From an uncultured Bacteroides sp. (GTDB lineage Bacteria; Bacteroidota; Bacteroidia; Bacteroidales; Bacteroidaceae), in assembly GCA_947646015.1 (NCBI GenBank), contig CANSEY010000030.1, positions 1 to 51,427 of the forward strand: DNA of 51,427 nucleotides, written 5' to 3'. Numbering within the stretch: the first letter of the stretch is position 1; every line of letters begins with the position of its first letter. Both the position numbers and the translations under genes were made by a program. Below, piece by piece: positions 3,123-36,563 of this stretch. The notes beneath the pieces are model-generated. The model saw only the letters and a program-made list of their open reading frames with translations, searched no databases and was not told the DNA's origin.

Positions 3123-4580
3123 ATGAAATTTAAACTGCATAATGGGAGCGGAGGTCTTTGTTGTAAAAGCTGTTCCCGACAAGATAAAAAACTAAATACC
3201 TATGATTGGCTGGCCGACATACCAGGCAATGCAGAGGAGAGTGATATGGTAGAAGTTCAATTTAAGAACACCCGTAAAGGCTACTACCGTAACAGTAACA
3301 AAATCAAATTGGAGAAAGGCGATATCGTAGCTGTAGAAGCTACTCCGGGACACGATATTGGTACTGTCACCCTGACAGGACGATTAGTCCCCCTCCAGAT
3401 GAAAAAGGCAAACTTTAAACAGGATGCCGAAATCAAGCGTATCTACCGCAAAGCAAAAGCTGTAGATATGGAGAAATATGAAGAAGCAAAAGCCAAAGAA
3501 CATACCACAATGATTCGTGCACGGCAGATAGCAGCCAGTCTGAATCTGGATATGAAAATTGGTGATGTAGAATATCAAGGAGACGGCAATAAAGCTATCT
3601 TTTATTATATCGCCGACGAACGCGTAGACTTCCGCCAATTGATTAAAGTACTGGCCGAAGCTTTTAGAGTACGTATCGAAATGAAGCAAATCGGTGCACG
3701 GCAGGAAGCCGGACGCATCGGAGGTATCGGCCCTTGCGGACGTGAGTTATGCTGTGCCACCTGGATGACCAGTTTTGTATCCGTATCAACCAGTGCGGCA
3801 AGGTATCAGGACATTTCACTGAATCCTCAAAAGTTGGCCGGACAGTGTGCCAAGTTAAAATGTTGCCTGAACTATGAAGTGGACTGCTATGTAGAAGCAC
3901 AAAAACGTCTGCCCTCAAGAGAAATCGAACTGGAAACCAAAGACGGAACCTATTACTTCTTCAAAGCAGATATCCTCAGTAATCAGATTTCGTATTCAAC
4001 CGACAAAAACTTTGCAGCAAACTTAGTGACCATTAGCGGAAAACGTGCATTCGAAGTGATAGGGCTGAACAAAAGAGGTATTAAACCGGACAGTCTGTTG
4101 GAAGCCGAACGCAAACCGGAACCTAAAAAGCCTGTTGATTTGCTGGAGCAGGAAAGCTTGACGCGTTTCGACCGTGACCGCCGCCGTAACGCCAAAGACG
4201 GAAATGGAAAGGACGAAGGCGGAAACGGAAACCGGAAAAAGAAAAAGAAGAATAATAACAACCGCCCGCAACAAGCTGCCAATGGCGAAACACAGAGTTC
4301 ACAGTCCACTCCGATTAATGCACAGGAGAACAACGGTTCTCAGCCTGTACAAAACCAACAGCGTACACGTGGTGAACGTCCGAAAAACAATAATCGCAAC
4401 AACAACCAACCACGTAAAAATAATGAGTCTCGTGAACCGCGTAACAACGAGAACCGGGAAACGCGTAAAAACGAACCCCGTGAACAGCGCCCTCCTCGCG
4501 AACCACGCGGACCGCGCAACAATGAACAACCTAAACGTATCGAGAAAGCTCAGGAAAATGAAAAGCCTGCTCAAGAATAG
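3123..4580 (+). CDS. ricT: PSP1-domain protein, RicT/YaaT-like, with basic Asn/Arg tail
   Basis: The core (about residues 100-260) is a PSP1 domain with GGIGPCGRELCC and a second Cys group (QCAKLKCC). Together they give Cys at 205, 210, 211, 242, 247, 248 and 255. In Bacillus, RicT works with RicA and RicF, carries Fe-S clusters and affects RNA processing and development. No ricA or ricF homologue is visible here. An N-terminal CCKSC lies at residues 13-17. The last 130 or so residues are low complexity, rich in Asn, Arg, Glu, Lys and Pro, and look disordered and possibly RNA-binding (inference). The gene lies between holB and gldH, and gldH begins inside its 3' end. The role in Bacteroides is not established. 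Confidence 0.85.
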   Translation: MKFKLHNGSGGLCCKSCSRQDKKLNTYDWLADIPGNAEESDMVEVQFKNTRKGYYRNSNKIKLEKGDIVAVEATPGHDIGTVTLTGRLVPLQMKKANFKQDAEIKRIYRKAKAVDMEKYEEAKAKEHTTMIRARQIAASLNLDMKIGDVEYQGDGNKAIFYYIADERVDFRQLIKVLAEAFRVRIEMKQIGARQEAGRIGGIGPCGRELCCATWMTSFVSVSTSAARYQDISLNPQKLAGQCAKLKCCLNYEVDCYVEAQKRLPSREIELETKDGTYYFFKADILSNQISYSTDKNFAANLVTISGKRAFEVIGLNKRGIKPDSLLEAERKPEPKKPVDLLEQESLTRFDRDRRRNAKDGNGKDEGGNGNRKKKKKNNNNRPQQAANGETQSSQSTPINAQENNGSQPVQNQQRTRGERPKNNNRNNNQPRKNNESREPRNNENRETRKNEPREQRPPREPRGPRNNEQPKRIEKAQENEKPAQE

Positions 4581-5028
4581 CATTTGCATGCTCCTTACCA
4601 CATGGGTTCTGACTGCATGTGACGAAAATACTGTGTATCACTCTTACCAATCCACTCCCCCGGATGGATGGAAGAAGAGTGATACACTCTTTTTCAACGT
4701 GCCTCTAAAAGATTCCCTAGCCAACCTGCGACTGTCCGTTGGTGTACGCAACAGCAGTAACTACCCTTATCAGAACCTGAATATCCTCATCCATTATAAT
4801 CTGGAAGATTCAACTGTATGGAAGACAGATACCCTGAAGTTTATACTGACTGACCGGGAAGGCAAATGGACAGGAACCGGCTGGGGAAGTCTCTACCAAT
4901 CGGCGCTCCCTTTGAAGGACTGCTTTGTCAAACATCCCGGCAACTATACTTTCAAGATAGTACACGAAATGAAGAATGAACAACTAACCGGGATCAGTGA
5001 TGTGGGATTGAAAATAGAACATTTATAG
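4558..5028 (+). CDS. gldH: GldH-family lipoprotein
   Basis: The 156-residue product begins MKSLLKNSICMLLTTW and has a lipobox ending LTAC at about residue 17, so it is probably acylated and envelope-anchored. The rest is a compact beta-rich domain with GTGWGSLYQ, as in GldH proteins. GldH was defined as needed for gliding in Flavobacterium; in non-gliding Bacteroides the role is unknown. The frame is open upstream to 4174, but that part overlaps ricT and lacks a signal peptide, so the ATG at 4558 is chosen. It overlaps ricT by 23 nt, suggesting translational coupling. Its stop overlaps that of rodA on the other strand by 6 nt. Confidence 0.85.
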   Translation: MKSLLKNSICMLLTTWVLTACDENTVYHSYQSTPPDGWKKSDTLFFNVPLKDSLANLRLSVGVRNSSNYPYQNLNILIHYNLEDSTVWKTDTLKFILTDREGKWTGTGWGSLYQSALPLKDCFVKHPGNYTFKIVHEMKNEQLTGISDVGLKIEHL

Positions 5029-6480
5029 CCGTCTGCTACGCCCCGCATCGATACGCAGAAAGATAAAAAGCAGAATCGTAAATCCCCATAAAGATGACCC
5101 GCCATAACTAAAGAAAGGCAACGGAATACCGATTACAGGAGTCAGACCAAGTACCATTCCGATGTTAATAAACAAATGGAACAGGAAAATGCTCACAACC
5201 GAATAGCCATAAACCCGCCCGAAAGTAGAAGTCTGCCGCTCTGACGTCGCTATAAGACGGAGTATCAATGCCAAGAAAAGCAAAAGAACGGCTGCCGAAC
5301 CAACAAACCCCTGTTCTTCACCCACAGTACAGAAAATGAAATCGGTATCTTGTTCGGGCACATATTTCAACTTGGTTTGTGTACCATTCAGAAAACCTTT
5401 ACCCGTCAACCCTCCGGAACCAATCGCAATCTTCGACTGGTTAACGTTGTAACCGGCTCCGGCCAAGTCCTCTTCCATCCCCAACACCACTTTTATACGA
5501 ATCTGCTGATGAGGTTCAAGAATGTTGTCGAACACATAATCACTTGAATAAAGAAAACCGATAGAACCCAAAGCAAACAATCCGATCAAAAGATAGGCAC
5601 GTTGCCGTTCGCTCAAAGATAAGTAAAGTAGATAACCTATGGTCACCACACAAAGCCCCCACTCCACCCAAACCAAATTGAATGGAGAGAGATACTCAGA
5701 AACGAGATAAGCGATCAGCAGCACAAGCAAACTACCGCCTATCATATTCCGTACAGGTTCCCACTTTTTCCTATACACCCAAACCATGGAACCGGCAAAT
5801 AAAAGTATCATCAACAACACGGCAAACTCTCCGATAGGCGTAGGCGTATCGGCTATAAATACCTGATCGAAACGAATACCGACCACAAAATAGACTACGG
5901 CACATACTCCCGAAAACAAAACTACTCCAGGCATACCCTCGCGATATAGCACCAAGAAGAAGGCAAGATAGACCAATGCCGAACCGGTTTCTTTCTGCAA
6001 AATAATCAGCAACATCGGAAGTAAAATAAAAGCTACCAAGGGTAAAAAGCACTTCCACTTCTTGATATTAAATGAATAGGCATTCATAAACTTTGCCAGA
6101 GCCAAAGCTGTGGCAAATTTTGCAAACTCCGCCGGCTGCAGACTGACCGGACCTAATATTAACCACGAACGGGAACCTTTCGTATCGGGTGCAATAAAAA
6201 TGGTTACGATCAACAGAAGAATCATACCTATATATATCAGGTATGCAAACATATCGTACATTCGTTCTTCAAGCATCAGGAGTATAAAACCAAGCCCAAA
6301 GGAACAGATAATCCACACAAACTGCCTACCGGCACGTGTTGAAAAGTCCAGAAAGTCACGATCACCATAATCATAACTGGCACCGCACACACTAAACCAT
6401 CCACCGATTATAAGGAGCAGGTAAATGACGATCGTTACCCAATCCAATGTTTTCCATAAACTAACGCTCCTCGTTTCCAT
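5023..6480 (-). CDS. rodA: RodA SEDS peptidoglycan glycosyltransferase
   Basis: This polytopic SEDS protein polymerises lipid II for the elongasome with PBP2. It has multiple hydrophobic helices and the signature PEQDTDFIF at residues 375-383; Asp380 matches the catalytic Asp of RodA/FtsW proteins. FFSYGGSS near the C-terminus is another SEDS hallmark. At 485 residues it is longer than E. coli RodA (about 370). The extra length is in the middle (about 200-330), which holds added hydrophobic segments. It overlaps mrdA by 20 nt and is last in the purH-mreBCD-mrdA-rodA run. No terminator is visible after it because the convergent gldH starts to overlap at once. Confidence 0.95.
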   Translation of the reverse strand: METRSVSLWKTLDWVTIVIYLLLIIGGWFSVCGASYDYGDRDFLDFSTRAGRQFVWIICSFGLGFILLMLEERMYDMFAYLIYIGMILLLIVTIFIAPDTKGSRSWLILGPVSLQPAEFAKFATALALAKFMNAYSFNIKKWKCFLPLVAFILLPMLLIILQKETGSALVYLAFFLVLYREGMPGVVLFSGVCAVVYFVVGIRFDQVFIADTPTPIGEFAVLLMILLFAGSMVWVYRKKWEPVRNMIGGSLLVLLIAYLVSEYLSPFNLVWVEWGLCVVTIGYLLYLSLSERQRAYLLIGLFALGSIGFLYSSDYVFDNILEPHQQIRIKVVLGMEEDLAGAGYNVNQSKIAIGSGGLTGKGFLNGTQTKLKYVPEQDTDFIFCTVGEEQGFVGSAAVLLLFLALILRLIATSERQTSTFGRVYGYSVVSIFLFHLFINIGMVLGLTPVIGIPLPFFSYGGSSLWGFTILLFIFLRIDAGRSRRL

Positions 6481-10857: not shown

Positions 10858-12381
10858 TTAGTGCTTAAAGTGGCGGATACCCGTTGTAACCATTGCCATG
10901 CCATGTTCGTTGCAATAGTCAAATGTCAACTGGTCTTTCACCGAACCGCCCGGCTGGATCACAGCTGTCACACCTTCCTTATCCGCAATTTCCACACAAT
11001 CGGGGAAAGGGAAGAAAGCATCCGATGCCATCACCGCACCCTGCAAATCGAAACCAAACGACTTAGCTTTTTCGATAGCTTGTTTCAGTGCATCCACACG
11101 TGAAGTCTGTCCCACACCGCTTGCCAGCAATTGTTTTCCTTTGGCCAAAACAATGGCATTCGACTTACTGTTTTTTACTATTTTATTAGCAAACAGCATA
11201 TCTTCTACCTCTTCCGGTGTCGGAGCTTTATCAGTTACCGTTTTCAGGTCTGCAGTTGTTTCAATATTCAAGTCTCTGTCCTGAACCAATACACCATTCA
11301 ATAAAGAACGGAATTGCTTTCTCGGCAATTTAGCCTCTTTACGAACCAAAATGATACGATTCTTTTTCTGTCCCAGAATTTCGAGTGCATCTACATCGTA
11401 ATCAGGAGCAATCACAACTTCAAAGAAGATTTTATTGATCTCTTCCGCTGTCTCTTTATCAATAACCGCATTCGTGATCAGCACCCCCCCAAAGGCAGAT
11501 ACCGGATCACCGGCCAACGCGTCTTTCCATGCTTCGAGCACAGTAGGACGAGAAGCCAGCCCGCAAGCATTATTATGCTTCAGAATAGCAAATGTGACAT
11601 CGTCAAACTCATCGATCAAATCGACAGCGGCATTGATGTCAAGCAGGTTGTTATAAGAGATCTCTTTTCCATGAATCTGATCAAACATCTCATCCAGGTT
11701 TCCATAGAAATATCCCTTCTGATGTGGATTTTCGCCATAACGCAACGTCTTCTGGCTATTGGCAGAGCAACGGAAAGCAGAACCCTCTTCAGCATCAAAA
11801 TAGTTGAAGATAGCCGAATCATAGTGTGAAGATACGGCAAATGCCTCTTTAGCCATCCAACGACGTTCTTCAAGAGAAGAAGTGGCCCCGTGCTCCATCA
11901 ACATATCGAGCAAAGGTTTATATTGAGCTTGTGAAGCAACAATAATTACGTCATTGAAGTTTTTGGCAGCGGCACGAATCAAAGAGATTCCGCCTATATC
12001 AATTTTTTCGATAATAGCAGCCTCATCAGCACCCGAAGCAACAGTCGCTTCAAACGGATAGAGGTCTACAATAACCAGGTCGATTTCAGGGATTTCATAT
12101 TTCTCAATCTGCTGGATGTCTTGTTCCAGTCCACGGCGGCAAAGAATTCCTCCGAATATTTTCGGATGCAGCGTCTTCACTCTACCACCCAAAATAGAAG
12201 GATACGAAGTCAAATCTTCGACAGCCTTACAGGGATAGCCCAGCGATTCAATAAACTGACGAGTTCCGCCTGTTGACAGGAACTCTACTCCTTCTTCGTG
12301 CAGTTTGGTAATGATTTCATCCAAACCTTCTTTGTGATAAACCGATACCAAAGCGGTTTTTATTCTTTTAGACTCAGACAT
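10858..12381 (-). CDS. purH: Bifunctional AICAR transformylase / IMP cyclohydrolase
   Basis: The 507-residue enzyme carries out the last two steps of IMP synthesis. The N-terminal IMP cyclohydrolase domain (about 1-190) starts KRIKTALVSVYHKEGL and contains LSTGGT and GGRVKTLHPKI. The C-terminal transformylase domain carries KTLRYGENPHQ and KHNNACGLA. The frame is open to a TTG at 12411, but that point overlaps the -7 promoter element, so the ATG at 12381 is chosen. It appears to head the transcript running into mreB, joining purine synthesis with cell-wall growth genes. Confidence 0.95.
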   Translation of the reverse strand: MSESKRIKTALVSVYHKEGLDEIITKLHEEGVEFLSTGGTRQFIESLGYPCKAVEDLTSYPSILGGRVKTLHPKIFGGILCRRGLEQDIQQIEKYEIPEIDLVIVDLYPFEATVASGADEAAIIEKIDIGGISLIRAAAKNFNDVIIVASQAQYKPLLDMLMEHGATSSLEERRWMAKEAFAVSSHYDSAIFNYFDAEEGSAFRCSANSQKTLRYGENPHQKGYFYGNLDEMFDQIHGKEISYNNLLDINAAVDLIDEFDDVTFAILKHNNACGLASRPTVLEAWKDALAGDPVSAFGGVLITNAVIDKETAEEINKIFFEVVIAPDYDVDALEILGQKKNRIILVRKEAKLPRKQFRSLLNGVLVQDRDLNIETTADLKTVTDKAPTPEEVEDMLFANKIVKNSKSNAIVLAKGKQLLASGVGQTSRVDALKQAIEKAKSFGFDLQGAVMASDAFFPFPDCVEIADKEGVTAVIQPGGSVKDQLTFDYCNEHGMAMVTTGIRHFKH

Positions 12382-28097: not shown

Positions 28098-30398
28098 TCA
28101 ATCTCCCGCTACATATCGTCTTGCCTCAGTCATTACGATATCTACCTGTCGAAGAGCTTCATTCGCCTTTTGTATCATTTCGTCCGATACGGCTTCGCCA
28201 CGACGCTGCTCCAGCCATAATAGCAGAGGAAGTGCCTCGGAAGCCCCAAGCAACGTAAACAGAGGCAATAATTTGTGAGCCATGCCGGCTATCCCATCCA
28301 CATCAGTGGCTCGGATAGCGCTTTCCATCCGGTTCCGGTTCTTCTCCGTTTCTTCAATAAAGGTTTGAATGATGGTAGAGGCAGCTTCCGGATCATCTTC
28401 GGAAAAAGCAGTCAGCGCCCGAAAGTTAAGGGAGTCCGGTGTCAATTCAGCTGACGAACCGGTCATTTCTTCACCACTGATAATCGTCAAGAGTTCCTTT
28501 ACCGTAAAAGGCTTATGCAAACATCCTGCAAAGCCGTGTTCCTGAAAGTCCTGTTCATTCATCTCACTCCGGGCGGTAACAGCAATTACCGGAATAGTAC
28601 GCGCCTGAGGTATATTGGATGCACGCAATAGTTTCAGTAAATCGAAACCATTGATGGCAGGCATTTGAACGTCAGTCAGCAACACGTCGAATGTAGCCGT
28701 ACGAAGTTGCTCAATCAACTCATCCGGCTGTTGGCAGCAAACAGCCTGAATGCCTTGTTGTTCAAGCATAGCGGCAGTCAGAGCCAATTGAATCCGGTCG
28801 TCATCAATCAATAAAACACGGTTTAATTTTGGAGATGCCATTACCCCGTCCTCACCGGCTTGATCTGTCGTTGAAACCGAAGACACATTTCCTTCCCGCT
28901 TCTCTCCTGTCACAGGCCCCACAGGATAGAGCGGCAGAATGACAATAAAACGACTCCCTTCACCCAAGGTACTTTGAACACTAATCGATCCTTCGAGCAA
29001 GGTCACAAGTTTGTGTACAATGGAAAGCCCCAGTCCAAAGCCTTCCTCACCTTGCGCTCCCGGCAACCGGGTAAATTCCTGAAATATCTTTTCACGGTCA
29101 CCAGGTGCCATACCTTTACCTGTGTCCACCACCTCGATGCGGACACTGGACGAATGATAGGTAATATTCAATGCAATGCTACCCTTAGCTGTGAATTTCA
29201 CAGCATTGGAAAGCAGATTATTTACAATTTGCCGGATACGGAGCGGATCACTGATAAAGCGTCCGTCCAGTTCGGCGTCTATACTGCAACTTAAAGTCAG
29301 ATGTTTGGCATCGGTCAGTGGTTTGAAGCTAATACGTATCTCTTCAAACAGTTGTGCCGGATTAAAAGTAACCCGGTTGACTTCTGCCTTATTCAGATCC
29401 AACCGGTGGAAGTCGAGCAAGTCACTTACCAGTTTAAGCAGATGTTGCGAGGAACTTTTCATATTGTCCAGATAGAAACGCTGTCTTTCATCCGTAGTCA
29501 ACCCGGTCAATAAATCCGTATATCCGATGATAGACCCCAAAGGAGCTTTAAAATCATGAGTGATGGCAAGCATTAACTTTTCACGAGCCTCCAACAACGC
29601 CTCCGCACGCTTATTGGCCTCCTCCAATTCCTTCCGGTAACGATTGCTCCGGGTGATATCCCGCCAAATCATAATCAGGAAGCAGGCGGACAGCAACACG
29701 GCGGCAATGGCAATCCCGCCAATCGTACGAGTTGAACGGTTCCGAAGTTCTTGCTGTTCGGATGCGTTGTCCATAGCACGTTGGGTGACTACTTGCTCAT
29801 AGGTCGTAATCATGCTGTCAATACGAGTGGTTAATTCCTTATTCATCCGGCGAAGACGGGCATTGTAGTTGGGCCGTACCACAGGCCTGGACTTCCGTTT
29901 GGTCACCGTTCGTATGCGCTGATGTAGTGAATCAATCGGATTGTAAGGTTCAAGAATGGTGTCGGTCGCAAATTCCACAGCTGTATTTACCAGCACAGCC
30001 GTATCTTCTTTCGAAGGAGCGAACACCTCGCCCAACCTCCTGAAAAAACCCTTTTTCTTTCGTTTCGTAATCACAGAGTCACGCTTGGTGATGATACGAT
30101 GTTGCACACGCTGTTGAGTGATCACTGTATCTTGTTCGGCAATGATGGAATCCAATTCAACCGGAGTAATCATACTCTCGTTCGCTTCATTAATGATCTG
30201 AAGCATCCGGATGGTATTTTCATCTTTCTCTTTCAGTAAAAGCAGCAAACTATCCGTCTGCAAACTCTGTACATCGTCCGTATCAGACAGTTTCTCCATC
30301 TCCCTGTGTACAAACAACAGGGAGAGCAGCAGCACAACCAGCAACAAAGTATACCCCGCCGCGATCTTTACTTTTGTGAAACGGGAAGGAATAGCCAT
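28098..30398 (-). CDS. Hybrid sensor histidine kinase (HK-REC-Hpt)
   Basis: The 766-residue membrane kinase has a helix at 11-30, an extracytoplasmic stretch of about 190 residues with basic and coiled segments, and a second helix at about 226-245. HisKA follows with His281 (ITHDFKAPLGS), then HATPase (NNLLSNAVKF, DTGKGM, GFGLGLSIVHKL). A receiver domain has Asp576 (LLTDVQMP) and Lys629, and an Hpt domain has His708 (GMAHKLLPLF). The layout implies a phosphorelay out of Hpt to a separate response regulator. The divergent sigma-54 regulator at 33909 is the nearest candidate (inference). It is last in an operon after the MATE gene (3-nt gap). The signal is unknown. Confidence 0.92.
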   Translation of the reverse strand: MAIPSRFTKVKIAAGYTLLLVVLLLSLLFVHREMEKLSDTDDVQSLQTDSLLLLLKEKDENTIRMLQIINEANESMITPVELDSIIAEQDTVITQQRVQHRIITKRDSVITKRKKKGFFRRLGEVFAPSKEDTAVLVNTAVEFATDTILEPYNPIDSLHQRIRTVTKRKSRPVVRPNYNARLRRMNKELTTRIDSMITTYEQVVTQRAMDNASEQQELRNRSTRTIGGIAIAAVLLSACFLIMIWRDITRSNRYRKELEEANKRAEALLEAREKLMLAITHDFKAPLGSIIGYTDLLTGLTTDERQRFYLDNMKSSSQHLLKLVSDLLDFHRLDLNKAEVNRVTFNPAQLFEEIRISFKPLTDAKHLTLSCSIDAELDGRFISDPLRIRQIVNNLLSNAVKFTAKGSIALNITYHSSSVRIEVVDTGKGMAPGDREKIFQEFTRLPGAQGEEGFGLGLSIVHKLVTLLEGSISVQSTLGEGSRFIVILPLYPVGPVTGEKREGNVSSVSTTDQAGEDGVMASPKLNRVLLIDDDRIQLALTAAMLEQQGIQAVCCQQPDELIEQLRTATFDVLLTDVQMPAINGFDLLKLLRASNIPQARTIPVIAVTARSEMNEQDFQEHGFAGCLHKPFTVKELLTIISGEEMTGSSAELTPDSLNFRALTAFSEDDPEAASTIIQTFIEETEKNRNRMESAIRATDVDGIAGMAHKLLPLFTLLGASEALPLLLWLEQRRGEAVSDEMIQKANEALRQVDIVMTEARRYVAGD

Positions 30399-33908: not shown

Positions 33909-35252
33909 ATGAGATCCATACTGATAGTTGAAGATGATATTACGTTCGGGATGATGCTAAAAACCTGGTTAGGCAAAAAAGGGTTTAATGTATCATCAGT
34001 GAGTAACATTGCACGTGCGCAAAAGCACATCGATGCACAACCGGTAGACCTGATTCTTTCCGACTTGCGACTTCCCGACCACGATGGTATTCACCTGTTG
34101 AAATGGATGGGTGAGAAAGAGCTCCATATCCCATTGATTATCATGACAGGATATGCAGATATCCAATCAGCCGTACAAGCAATGAAACTGGGTGCACAAG
34201 ACTATATTGCCAAACCCGTTAATCCCGAAGAGCTGCTTAAGAAAATGAGCGAAGCACTTCAAAAGAAAGAAGCTCCTCTTCCCAAAACTCCCCTCACGGA
34301 GAAAAGCCCTAAAACCAAACAAGAATCTCATTCCTATCTGGAAGGAGAAAGTGATGCTGCCAAACAACTCTATAACTATGTCAGCCTGGTAGCTCCCACC
34401 AACATGTCAGTCCTGATCAACGGTGCCAGTGGAACCGGAAAAGAGTATGTAGCCCATCGTATTCACCAATTAAGCAAACGTAGCGACAAACCGTTTATTG
34501 CCATCGACTGTGGCTCCATCCCCAAAGAGTTGGCCGCTTCTGAGTTCTTCGGTCACATCAAAGGCTCCTTCACCGGTGCTCTCTCTGATAAAACCGGTGC
34601 TTTTGTAGCAGCGAACGGGGGTACCATCTTTCTTGATGAAATCGGTAACCTGAGTTACGAAATACAAATTCAACTTCTTCGTGCACTACAGGAACGTAAA
34701 ATACGCCCTGTTGGTTCAAACTCAGAAATTACTGTCGATATCCGTCTGGTGTCTGCAACCAACGAGAACCTGGAACAAGCCATCGAAAAAGGTACATTCC
34801 GCGAAGACCTCTACCACCGAATCAATGAATTTACTTTGCGCATGCCTACTCTGAAAGAACGTGGCGGAGACATCCTTCTTTTTGCCAACTTCTTCCTCGA
34901 CCAGGCTAATAAAGAGCTTGACAAGCAACTGATCGGCTTCGATGCCAATGCTTCAAAGGCATTACTCGAATATCACTGGCCCGGCAACCTAAGGCAGATG
35001 AAGAATATCATCAAACGCGCCACATTGCTTGCTCAAGGCAGTTTCATAGGCCTTGCAGAACTGGGTAGTGAAATTCTGGAAACACAACTATCAACTCCCA
35101 AAATGACATTACGGGATGAAGATGCCGAAAAGGAACATATACTGGAAGCACTCCGACAAACAGGAAACAACAAAAGCCGTGCTGCACAATTACTCGATAT
35201 TGACCGCAAAACATTATACAATAAACTGAAACTATACGGAATCGACCTCTAA
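33909..35252 (+). CDS. Sigma-54-dependent response regulator (NtrC family)
   Basis: The 447-residue transcription activator has a receiver domain (Asp52 in LILSDLRLPD, Lys102 in AKPV), a AAA+ sigma-54 interaction domain (Walker A GASGTGKE about 172-179, the sigma-54 contact loop GSFTGA 219-224, Walker B GTIFLDEIG) and a C-terminal Fis-type helix-turn-helix (about 407-447, NNKSRAAQLLDIDRKTLYNKL). It should bind DNA upstream of sigma-54 promoters and drive open-complex formation when phosphorylated. No kinase is adjacent in the same direction. The hybrid kinase in the divergent operon is a possible partner. A palindrome and a -24/-12-like element lie just downstream. Confidence 0.95.
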   Translation: MRSILIVEDDITFGMMLKTWLGKKGFNVSSVSNIARAQKHIDAQPVDLILSDLRLPDHDGIHLLKWMGEKELHIPLIIMTGYADIQSAVQAMKLGAQDYIAKPVNPEELLKKMSEALQKKEAPLPKTPLTEKSPKTKQESHSYLEGESDAAKQLYNYVSLVAPTNMSVLINGASGTGKEYVAHRIHQLSKRSDKPFIAIDCGSIPKELAASEFFGHIKGSFTGALSDKTGAFVAANGGTIFLDEIGNLSYEIQIQLLRALQERKIRPVGSNSEITVDIRLVSATNENLEQAIEKGTFREDLYHRINEFTLRMPTLKERGGDILLFANFFLDQANKELDKQLIGFDANASKALLEYHWPGNLRQMKNIIKRATLLAQGSFIGLAELGSEILETQLSTPKMTLRDEDAEKEHILEALRQTGNNKSRAAQLLDIDRKTLYNKLKLYGIDL

Positions 35253-35262
35253 AGAACACCAA

Positions 35263-35312
35263 GGTGTGGAATATTTCCACACCCTTTTCCACATTTTCCA
35301 CAACATTCCACA
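35263..35312. promoter_or_regulatory. Palindrome plus TTCCACA half-sites, candidate activator binding region
   Basis: A perfect 21-bp palindrome (GGTGTGGAA, TAT, TTCCACACC; 35263-35283) is followed by further TTCCACA half-sites at 35287, 35296 and 35306. Counting the one in the palindrome (35275), spacings are 12, 9 and 10 bp, close to one helical turn. It begins 10 bp after the regulator's stop and about 100 bp upstream of a -24/-12-like element, the usual place for an enhancer-binding site. Alternatives: a weak terminator hairpin, or DnaA-like boxes (TTTTCCACA differs from TTATCCACA at one base). Confidence 0.6.
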
Positions 35313-35380
35313 CTGCATCCCATTTCCATTCATTTTTTACTCACCTACAAATCAACAGATTAGTTCACACGTATTCTTTT

Positions 35381-35395
35381 TGGCACAAGATTTGG
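35381..35395 (+). promoter_or_regulatory. Candidate sigma-54 (-24/-12) promoter
   Basis: TGGCAC-N5-TTGG matches the sigma-54 consensus TGGCAC-N5-TTGC except for the last base. The -24 GG is intact and the spacing is right. It is directly downstream of a sigma-54 activator gene and its putative enhancer, and upstream of the small exported protein gene. Transcription would start near 35407. Confidence 0.55.
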
Positions 35396-35423
35396 GAAAT
35401 ACTCAATACAAGTGTTTAACCAA

Positions 35424-35483
35424 ATGAAAGATAAAACTAAAGAGTTAGTTTTATAGTAGTAGCAATGTTTATGTTTGTTTGTG
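35424..35483 (+). pseudogene. Decayed copy of the leader of the next gene, with 10-codon ORF
   Basis: 35442-35483 aligns with 35558-35597 inside the next gene: about 37 of 40 positions match, with a 2-nt insertion (TA) in the upstream copy. The ATG at 35424 reads MKDKTKELVL then TAG (35424-35456). Without the TA insertion it would continue as LVLVVAMFMFVC, nearly the same as the downstream signal peptide. It is either the remnant of a tandem duplication or a short upstream ORF in the leader of the next gene. Confidence 0.6.
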
Positions 35484-35551
35484 ATGGTTTTAACCTAGAC
35501 CTTAACATGAAATTAAAAACAGACAATCAGAACTTTAACAAGAAAATAATT

Positions 35552-35749
35552 ATGAAAAAGTTAGTTTTAGTAGTAGCTATGTTTATGTTTGCTTGTGGAT
35601 CGTTCTTTACAATGGCACAGGATCCGGTGAAAAAAGACCCAAAGAAAGAGGTCAAAGACACTGCAAAAACTGAGCCTAAGAAAGAAGTAGCCGACACAAC
35701 CGCTATAACGGTCGCAGCATCAGGAGCATTTGCACAGTTTGCCGAATAA
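35552..35749 (+). CDS. Small exported Lys/Glu-rich protein, unknown function
   Basis: The 65-residue product begins MKKLVLVVAMFMFACGSF, a signal peptide with a likely signal-peptidase I site after TMA (mature protein from QDPVKK). The mature 43 or so residues carry two related units, DPKKEVKDTAK and EPKKEVADTTA, then a hydrophobic end (AASGAFAQFAE). I do not recognise a family or function. The frame is open upstream to 35465, but that part is the decayed leader copy, so the ATG at 35552 is chosen. It is probably monocistronic, read from the -24/-12-like element at 35381, and ends at its own terminator. Confidence 0.7.
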   Translation: MKKLVLVVAMFMFACGSFFTMAQDPVKKDPKKEVKDTAKTEPKKEVADTTAITVAASGAFAQFAE

Positions 35750-35767
35750 TAGTAAGCACACTACAAC

Positions 35768-35811
35768 AAAAAAGCCATTCCTACTTCGTCTATTCAGGGA
35801 ATGGCTTTTTT
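35768..35811 (+). terminator. Intrinsic terminator after the small exported protein gene
   Basis: AGCCATTCC (35773-35781) pairs with GGAATGGCT (35798-35806), followed by a T run on the plus strand. A-rich sequence on the other side lets it work in both directions. Confidence 0.9.
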
Positions 35812-35897
35812 GCGTTTATATAGGAAAGTAGATAACCAAAGTTGTGCTCCGGTTGAAATTATTTGAGGATCCATCTAAATGAAACCATCACTCTTTT

Positions 35898-36563
35898 TCA
35901 TTGAAATCCATGCCATAAGTTACTATCCGGTACAGGAGCATCGAGTTCAATCAATTCTTTAGACACCGGATGAACAAAACGCACATGCCGGGCATGCAAA
36001 CAAATACTTCCATCCGGATTGGAACGTGCAGAACCATATTTCAAATCACCTTTGATGGGACATCCCATCTTTGCCAACTGGCAACGAATCTGATGATGAC
36101 GTCCGGTCTTCAGATCAACTTCGAGTAGAAAGTAATGATCCGAATGTCCGATAAGTTTATAGTTCAGAATCGCCTTTTTACTGTTGGGAACCTCCTTATC
36201 ATAAGCGTAGCTTTTATTCTGCTTCTCGTTACGCACCAGATAGTGAACCAATTCTCCTTCGGGTTGCTTCGGACAATTCTTCACGATGGCCCAATAGGTC
36301 TTTTTCACTTCACTGTTCTTAAACATCTCATTCAAGCGGGAAAGAGCCTTACTGGTTTTCGCAAAAATAACAAGACCGCTCACGGGGCGGTCCAGCCGAT
36401 GGGTTACACCGATAAAGACATTTCCGGGTTTCTGATATTTATCTTTCAGATATTGCTTGACAGTTTCTGAAAGAGGAGTATCACCCGTTTTGTCTCCCTG
36501 AACGATTTCGGAAGCGGTCTTGTTAACTACTATAATATGATTGTCTTCGTATATGACGGTCAT
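35898..36563 (-). CDS. RluA-family pseudouridine synthase without S4 domain
   Basis: The 221-residue enzyme isomerises uridine to pseudouridine in RNA. The catalytic motif HRLDR at 55-59 (Asp58) and TGRHHQIRCQLA are the RluA-family blocks. It starts directly with the catalytic fold (YEDNHIIVVNK), so it lacks the N-terminal S4 RNA-binding domain of RluC/RluD and is nearer the RluA/TruC size class. The target RNA cannot be told. It is third after tetR and fabG, with an 8-nt gap to fabG. Confidence 0.9.
   Translation of the reverse strand: MTVIYEDNHIIVVNKTASEIVQGDKTGDTPLSETVKQYLKDKYQKPGNVFIGVTHRLDRPVSGLVIFAKTSKALSRLNEMFKNSEVKKTYWAIVKNCPKQPEGELVHYLVRNEKQNKSYAYDKEVPNSKKAILNYKLIGHSDHYFLLEVDLKTGRHHQIRCQLAKMGCPIKGDLKYGSARSNPDGSICLHARHVRFVHPVSKELIELDAPVPDSNLWHGFQ

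Follow-up and report, generated by a model that had tools for sequence, protein, structure and literature searches.

A predicted sigma-54 relay and a candidate dual-function RNA in Bacteroides

In a 51,427-nucleotide stretch of DNA from an uncultured Bacteroides sp. (the window, analyzed here over its whole length), a hybrid kinase with receiver and Hpt-like domains, an NtrC-type regulator and a sigma-54-type promoter probably make up a relay that drives a dual-function RNA. In the mechanism that we propose, the membrane hybrid kinase (28098-30398) would pass phosphate to the NtrC-type regulator (33909-35252), which would bind a palindrome and phased half-sites and whose AAA+ domain would open sigma-54 polymerase at 35381. 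The transcript, predicted to run from about 35406 to 35816, would contain the core UGUUUAUGUUUGUUUGUG and end in a terminator with the loop CTT-N0-3-GTCTATTC; in the window, the same transcript would also encode a 65-residue exported protein. In many relatives the open reading frame (ORF) appears decayed or deleted while the core, a stem and the terminator loop have stayed, which argues that the product kept throughout is a small RNA. This RNA would most likely act by base pairing via the single-stranded core, the terminator loop or both. The features involved are as follows.

28098..30398, minus strand: hybrid sensor histidine kinase, probable partner of the activator, with HisKA, HATPase and REC domains (Pfam) and a C-terminal Hpt-like domain
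33909..35252, plus strand: NtrC-family response regulator/sigma-54 activator, 447 amino acids, with REC, sigma-54 AAA+ (containing GSFTGA) and Fis-type HTH domains
35263..35283, no strand assigned: perfect 21-bp palindrome GGTGTGGAATATTTCCACACC, predicted enhancer core; its TGTGGAA starts 116 bp before TGGCA
35287-35293, 35296-35302 and 35306-35312, plus strand: three more TTCCACA half-sites
35381..35395, plus strand: -24/-12 element TGGCACAAGATTTGG (TGGCAC-N5-TTGG), with a similar element in relatives and a predicted transcription start near 35406
35431..35454, plus strand: 10-bp perfect hairpin immediately before core copy 1
35466..35483, plus strand: RNA core copy 1, exact 18-mer TGTTTATGTTTGTTTGTG, its frame broken by TAG
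35552..35749, plus strand: 65-codon ORF for a predicted small exported protein (MKKLVLVVAMFMFACGS...), holding core copy 2
35580-35597, plus strand: core copy 2, with one mismatch, inside the intact 65-codon ORF
35741..35768, plus strand: element GCCGAATAATAGTAAGCACACTACAACA, spanning the ORF stop codon; by eye, similar stretches occur in several ORF-less RNAs
35767..35812, plus strand: intrinsic terminator hairpin (arms 35767-35781 and 35798-35812), whose loop holds CTTCGTCTATTC, GTCTATTC at 35788-35795

The activator combines the REC, sigma-54 AAA+ and Fis-type HTH domains of an NtrC-family bEBP (Pfam: Sigma54_activat, 3.2e-66; Response_reg, 3.3e-28; HTH_8, 1.3e-14), and its translation contains GSFTGA, which we take to be a GAFTGA-type sigma-54 contact loop. 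Its nearest named relatives are two Bacteroides fragilis records, 95 and 97% identical, and rpoN is present in its own genome as well as in 36 of the 41 genomes searched. When the best 80 of 534 activator relatives were considered, a relative of the kinase was found in the flank at 63 of the 80 loci and was not found there at the other 17, some of which did have flanking sequence to search. Because of this association, the kinase at 28098-30398 is the likely partner of the activator, and a phosphorelay may link the two; the Hpt-like tail itself falls just under the Pfam threshold (E 9.8e-5, 23.0 bits, cut-off 24.6). Genes for a MATE transporter, an M16 peptidase and a PPIase are also frequent in activator flanks that carry the kinase relative. 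In Phocaeicola, all four share the activator strand, and at L126, L127, L129, L132-L135 and L139 the kinase lies near the activator and the other three were not found.

The preliminary description of this DNA had seen, after the activator gene, a palindrome with three phased half-sites, a TGGCAC-N5-TTGG element, a 65-codon ORF and a terminator, and had read them as a sigma-54 regulon in miniature with a small exported protein as its product. All of these elements were confirmed, and the palindrome and half-sites lie far beyond what shuffles of the window yield. At up to three mismatches, GGTGTGGAATATTTCCACACC has no other match in the window (shuffles expect 0.02), and the first three TTCCACA words at their exact window spacing likewise match once (shuffles, 0.00). 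TTCCACA starts at 35275, 35287, 35296 and 35306, giving spacings of 12, 9 and 10. No stretch of the window other than the promoter element TGGCACAAGATTTGG matches TGGCACNNNNNTTKG exactly; at one mismatch the count rises to 10, where 6.2 are expected. Taken by itself, the promoter word is therefore not significant, and it is conservation that lends it weight. An exact search of the 74.7% complete draft genome for TGTGGAAN{1,6}TTCCACA gives one occurrence. Looser enhancer sites, with up to two mismatches, number 26 in the window's own genome (G000) versus 11 in a reversed control, suggesting that the regulator may have other targets.

Conservation was assessed in a GTDB genome scan covering the best 80 of the 534 activator relatives with flanks of up to 10 kb. 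To count as an instance, a locus had to show two or more half-site words, a word resembling -24/-12 and a terminator with GTCTATTC (at most one mismatch). By these rules there were 51 instances of distinct sequence, 50 of which were retained after L093, which has no core, was dropped. The palindrome is present in 50 of these 50 instances, prefiltered as they are for at least two half-site words, with up to four mismatches, and in 49 with up to two; it starts 115-130 bp before TGGCA in 41 of them and 79-106 bp before it in 9. Half-sites (at most one mismatch) peak near -116, -105, -95, -85 and -75, about one helical turn apart. The palindrome also occurs in 13 of 14 further copies taken without the half-site filter, several of them distant from the activator, which were picked by hand from 77 genomes positive for the RNA 3' element, mostly for their odd position; the exception (L198) keeps its half-sites in an assembly that looks corrupted at that point. 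The palindrome stands further out in five copies (L077, L080, L083, L101 and L107), 404-504 bp upstream of the core, and in L032, L040 and L044 it is extended to an inverted repeat of roughly at least 35 bp (of the type GCGGGGAGTGTGGAA...TTCCACACTCCCCGC). What the relatives share is thus a -24/-12 element with conserved spacing and a palindromic array upstream of it, as in a sigma-54 promoter. Since the array is conserved across Bacteroides, the view of activator, enhancer array and -24/-12 element as a single conserved sigma-54 unit is well supported. A lack of conservation in relatives, which the preliminary description had named as grounds for abandoning its reading, is clearly rejected.

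The repeated word in the array, TTTTCCACA, also fits the DnaA-box pattern, and it occurs four times in the window against 0.9 expected, as it might at a replication origin. GC skew changes from positive to negative near 4-5 kb (window 4000-6000) and is then negative to the window end. A DnaA-box array is hardly credible here: the skew keeps its sign near 35.3 kb, and in relatives the array is helically phased to the -24/-12 element and follows that element even far from the activator. We ruled against an origin on these two grounds.

We next turn to the distribution of the unit that the proposed relay would control. A covariance model of the RNA 3' element, R1, drew on 31 of the 50 instances; as the window copy was among them, its own match at 35767-35816 (E 4.6e-8) is to be read with that in mind. 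Strong R1 matches (E < 1e-6) occur once each in 21 of 61 genomes, all among the 37 that belong to the window's genus. Weaker matches (E >= 3e-4), two of them in the window's own genome, are scattered and were taken as chance. The activator has matches in all 61 genomes searched; paralogues make up most of those listed, and 30 loci were fetched. In 119 genomes of the genus, with an activator threshold of E <= 1e-140, activator and RNA 3' element occur together in 76, the activator alone in 9, the RNA alone in 1 and neither in 33 (Fisher p 5e-20, kinship ignored). The RNA is therefore present in 77 genomes, once in 76 and twice, on two contigs, in G067, and the activator in 85; in the single RNA-alone genome (G002), a contig end truncates the activator. 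Of the 76 genomes with both, 52 have the RNA on the activator strand no more than 1 kb downstream of that gene, and in the other 24 the RNA lies 1-5 kb away (9), further away by up to 145 kb (6), on another contig (6) or on the opposite strand (3).

If the unit were a plain sigma-54 regulon, its product would be the small exported protein, and any RNA features would be by-products of coding and decay. The conserved regulator, enhancer and promoter fit such a regulon. Among 53 scored relatives, however, the ORF (at least 50 codons with an MKK or MKR start) is present in 25 and broken or deleted in 28, counts that, the relatives being kin, are not of independent events. The 18-mer TGTTTATGTTTGTTTGTG is nevertheless exact in 24 of the 28 ORF-less copies, versus 15 of the 25 ORF-bearing ones, at distances where neutral change is large: pairwise identity among 27 ORF-less copies averages 0.963 over the 18-mer, against 0.478 at fourfold-degenerate sites in the activator gene next to it. 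In five genomes (L017, L025, L052, L089 and L097), nearly everything between core and terminator is gone while promoter, core and terminator loop remain, leaving predicted RNAs of 144-156 nt on the assumption of a start 26 nt after the T of TGGCA. A stem with preserved pairing also follows the core in ORF-less copies, as set out below. We therefore consider a plain regulon quite unlikely. The conserved activator, enhancer and promoter unit of the preliminary description stands, and the exported protein as its product is not supported as stated, given an ORF that is missing in 28 of 53 relatives while the core, stem and terminator loop persist.

The 53 scored activators comprise 45 of the 80 GTDB loci and 8 others. 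The 35 unscored loci belong to other genera, lie on cut contigs or were missed by the instance rules; those missed include L077 and L083 (exact core, no ORF) and L131 (two ORF-bearing cores). In this last locus, from B. nordii, two exact cores stand in tandem at 11599 and 11917, and each lies in an open frame some 80 codons long. B. neonati (L071), one of the ORF-less copies, has lost the core and kept the promoter and the terminator loop. On an activator tree (63 rows, IQ-TREE, with L071 put in by hand), ORF state requires at least five changes. ORF-bearing species also sit on deep branches, which makes ORF loss the likelier direction; an independent-pairs test found only three pairs on starred branches and was uninformative.

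Where it survives, the ORF is under purifying selection, as judged from substitution patterns, a point that a plain regulon would share. In the three B. fragilis-clade copies, pN/pS is 0.12 over the first 22 codons and 0.19 over the rest. Past codon 22, five groups of our own choosing gave 0.33 (B. fragilis group, ovatus type), 0.24, 0.19, 0.34 and 0.39, a sixth (L019, L092) having one difference only. The largest of these, the ovatus-type group, shows a pS of 0.123 over codons 1-22 versus 0.346 elsewhere, a reduction that may reflect an overlapping RNA constraint, early codons being possibly special in other ways. A six-member ORF-bearing group has a pS of 0.708 in the first 22 codons versus 0.723, with no RNA-level constraint there; its core has drifted in L012, L021, L072, L100 and L115 and is exact in L013, and from the equal pS this stretch looks protein only in that group. 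Coding selection on the ORF thus coexists with RNA-level conservation beyond coding need, the sequence signature of a dual-function small RNA. The window ORF, whose open frame begins at 35465 (94 codons), matched nothing in Pfam or NCBIfam, in keeping with the earlier remark that the small protein has no recognized family.

The core overlaps signal-peptide codons in ORF-bearing species, as would be expected if core and stem were cis-acting mRNA elements governing translation or stability of the small protein and mere relics in species without the ORF. Identity of 96% at such divergence is more than a relic should show, as is continued pairing in the stem, and we regard this explanation as very improbable.

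The 18-mer might instead serve the main Bacteroides sigma factor as an internal promoter, giving a short RNA of stem and terminator. This factor has the -7 consensus TAnnTTTG, and a TTG was looked for at -33. The word TATGTTTG does occur in both window core copies (35470-35477 and 35584-35591), 43 of the 52 copies scored have TAnnTTTG at the core, and TATGTTTG itself is present in 26 of 27 ORF-less ones. In the ORF-less copies, however, the free positions of TAnnTTTG (TG) and the TTTGTG that follows are as conserved as the rest, and only 2 of the 43 TAnnTTTG copies have a TTG 17-26 nt upstream, at the -33 distance. The sigma-54-type promoter is also kept where the word or the core is missing, namely in B. 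neonati and in the remaining 9 scored copies, 8 of which bear the ORF. An internal promoter is accordingly unlikely. As for a TAnnTTTG promoter driving the small gene, which the preliminary description had raised as an objection to its own reading, TATGTTTG sits inside the ORF and core and so cannot drive the ORF.

Predicted folding gives further support to an RNA product of the sigma-54 unit. A long hairpin follows the core directly in 17 of 17 ORF-less copies tested (-21 to -38 kcal/mol), and stems as unlike as GGTTCTTTCTTGACA and GCTCTCCCCGGCA still pair. These 17 are drawn from the 28 ORF-less copies after exclusion of L102, L103, L105, L080, L101 and L107 (distant or displaced partners), three minimal copies, L085 and L071; the stem was defined from single-sequence folds that had no shuffle control of their own. 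Scored as a duplex against shuffles, 16 of the 17 gave z values of -3.3 to -5.5. Shuffle scoring over 45 of the 50 instances (the 5 minimal ones have no inner stretch) gave mean duplex z values of -3.7 for 22 copies labelled ORF-less versus -2.4 for 23 ORF-bearing ones, the former mean being weakened because the 22 include L003 and L063, whose ORF is on a second core copy. The inner stretch folds with much the same significance whether the ORF is absent (mean z -3.1) or present (-3.0), and RNAalifold found no structure on the raw alignment.

Covariation was examined in 14 of the 17 copies, leaving out L086, L112 and L020. In this alignment, 77.7% of stem cells pair. Changes on both sides occur in 9 of 14 pairs (19 of 500 shuffles as high), and there are 22 doubly changed cells with a covariation score of 0.367, values that none of 500 shuffles reached; further pair types were not above shuffles (156 of 500). 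Sliding the stem by -1 column gave a score of 0.361 and 23 cells with 64.9% paired, a near-equal result that we attribute to a bulge shifting the register. Pairing in the stem has thus been kept through changes on both sides. The window copy is not the clearest case, with its ORF intact and a weak post-core stem (duplex z -0.7).

The terminator loop has the form CTT-N0-3-GTCTATTC in most copies; since GTCTATTC (with at most one mismatch) was a search word, all of them carry it by construction. In 1.41 Mb from the 80 activator loci, 40 hairpin terminators bear the longer loop motif, of which 39 pass the site test and the fortieth (L131) is the same locus by its core. Another seven loop-motif matches lacked a qualifying hairpin or T-run; L067 and L071, two of the seven, are at the RNA locus. 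The window's own genome shows no excess of complements to the loop motif (103 matches versus 190 in a reversed control). The motif is also antisense to activator HTH codons in L111, L119 and L122; in the window copy, by eye, it is not.

The start of the small gene is duplicated in the window, a point absent from the preliminary description: 35451-35483 and 35565-35597 are 91% alike. The three B. fragilis-clade genomes seen (L001, L003 and L063) all have this partial tandem duplication, the first copy being frame-broken with an exact core and the second coding.

Comparable units occur elsewhere among the relatives. In Phocaeicola-type units, a like enhancer and promoter precede an unrelated exported ORF of 101-102 codons at five loci, with no ORF in L123 and L124. 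The 3' motif GATGCCTA...GCTGTGAAGC is carried by seven such units (L093, L098, L099, L104, L110, L123 and L124), which were found by that motif and so share it by construction; it marks a candidate second RNA family. L128 resembles these units and failed the script rules, by which no unit of this type was found in L113, L116, L117, L118, L120 or L130. In Paraprevotella (L129), tandem enhancer and sigma-54 promoter units lie at 11462 and 12230, the first before an ORF and the second apparently ORF-less. Further small exported-protein genes (MKKLVL...) lie on the strand opposite the activator in L022, L126 and L127, and in L127 a second such gene start follows the first.

These parallels raise the broader idea that one switch repeatedly turned messenger genes into regulatory RNAs in two genera, for which we consider the case evenly balanced. 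In Bacteroides, signal-peptide codons would have become an RNA core, followed by several ORF losses down to core and terminator. The Phocaeicola-type units, five with an ORF and two without, would be a parallel, and the B. fragilis clade would be in the course of dividing the two roles, RNA to copy 1 and protein to copy 2.

The proposed relay resembles a system known from Vibrio, in which LuxQ belongs to the LuxQ/LuxU - LuxO - Qrr relay. As described in the parts of the sources available to us, an Hpt relay there leads to the NtrC-family LuxO, palindromic enhancers and sigma-54-dependent Qrr small RNAs with a conserved core (PMC10162802, PMC4211561). Set against that description, the likeness extends to the relay, the NtrC-type regulator, the palindromic enhancers, sigma-54 and a conserved RNA core, all predicted here from sequence. 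Unlike Qrr, the Bacteroides unit has another enhancer sequence, its gene is usually near the activator, a protein is encoded in some species, and the window-type RNA is single-copy in 76 of 77 positive genomes. There was no Rfam Qrr match at 35200-35900 of the window (E <= 5) or at 15 relatives' loci (E <= 2 or 1), and the activator scores 335.1 bits against the LuxO cut-off of 800, so that the RNA is not a Qrr member. On this comparison, the predicted window relay works like LuxO/Qrr and is not homologous to it. Hfq is, to our knowledge, absent from Bacteroides.

Other known RNAs share single traits with this one. GlrR is the activator of GlmY/GlmZ, and the window activator reaches 340 bits against the GlrR cut-off of 763. 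The GlmY/GlmZ small RNAs of Enterobacteriaceae have a sigma-54 promoter, according to a reference in PMC4211561 that was available to us in part; our element shares this trait and differs in phylum, in having no Rfam match and in an activator below the GlrR cut-off. More broadly, neither the window locus nor 15 relatives' loci matched any Rfam family, Bacteroides BTnc small RNAs included, at gathering score, all hits being sub-threshold. SgrS is a dual-function small RNA, and VcdRP of Vibrio cholerae, in the portion of its description available to us, combines a regulatory RNA and a small protein on one transcript. Unlike in these two, the protein here was apparently lost repeatedly while the RNA persists, and the core overlaps signal-peptide codons. 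Within the same genus, GibS and FopS are small RNAs; FopS of B. thetaiotaomicron is a 14-copy family drawn with main sigma factor promoters in the parts of PMC11697453 at hand, and the window element differs in being mostly single-copy with a sigma-54-type promoter. SnoA, an HcpR-linked RNA, is apparently a different RNA, judging from the accessible part of PMC13370916.

RpoN, sigma-54 and NtrC go unmentioned in the main text of three papers on B. thetaiotaomicron small RNAs (PMC7366714, PMC10994844 and PMC10861873), whose supplements may list the locus, and a survey of sigma-54 regulons (PMC12316311) makes no mention of sRNA, small RNA or non-coding RNA. In the literature searched, as partial listings, we found no sigma-54-driven small RNA described in Bacteroides. 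In ORF-bearing species an RNA of this kind would probably carry an mRNA annotation and escape notice for that reason.

Bacteroides are major bacteria of the human gut. If the model is true, they would possess a Qrr-like relay, with a probable kinase, its regulator and the draft genome's only exact enhancer match in one window. It would also offer a natural species series, leading from mRNA to dual-function RNA to non-coding RNA.
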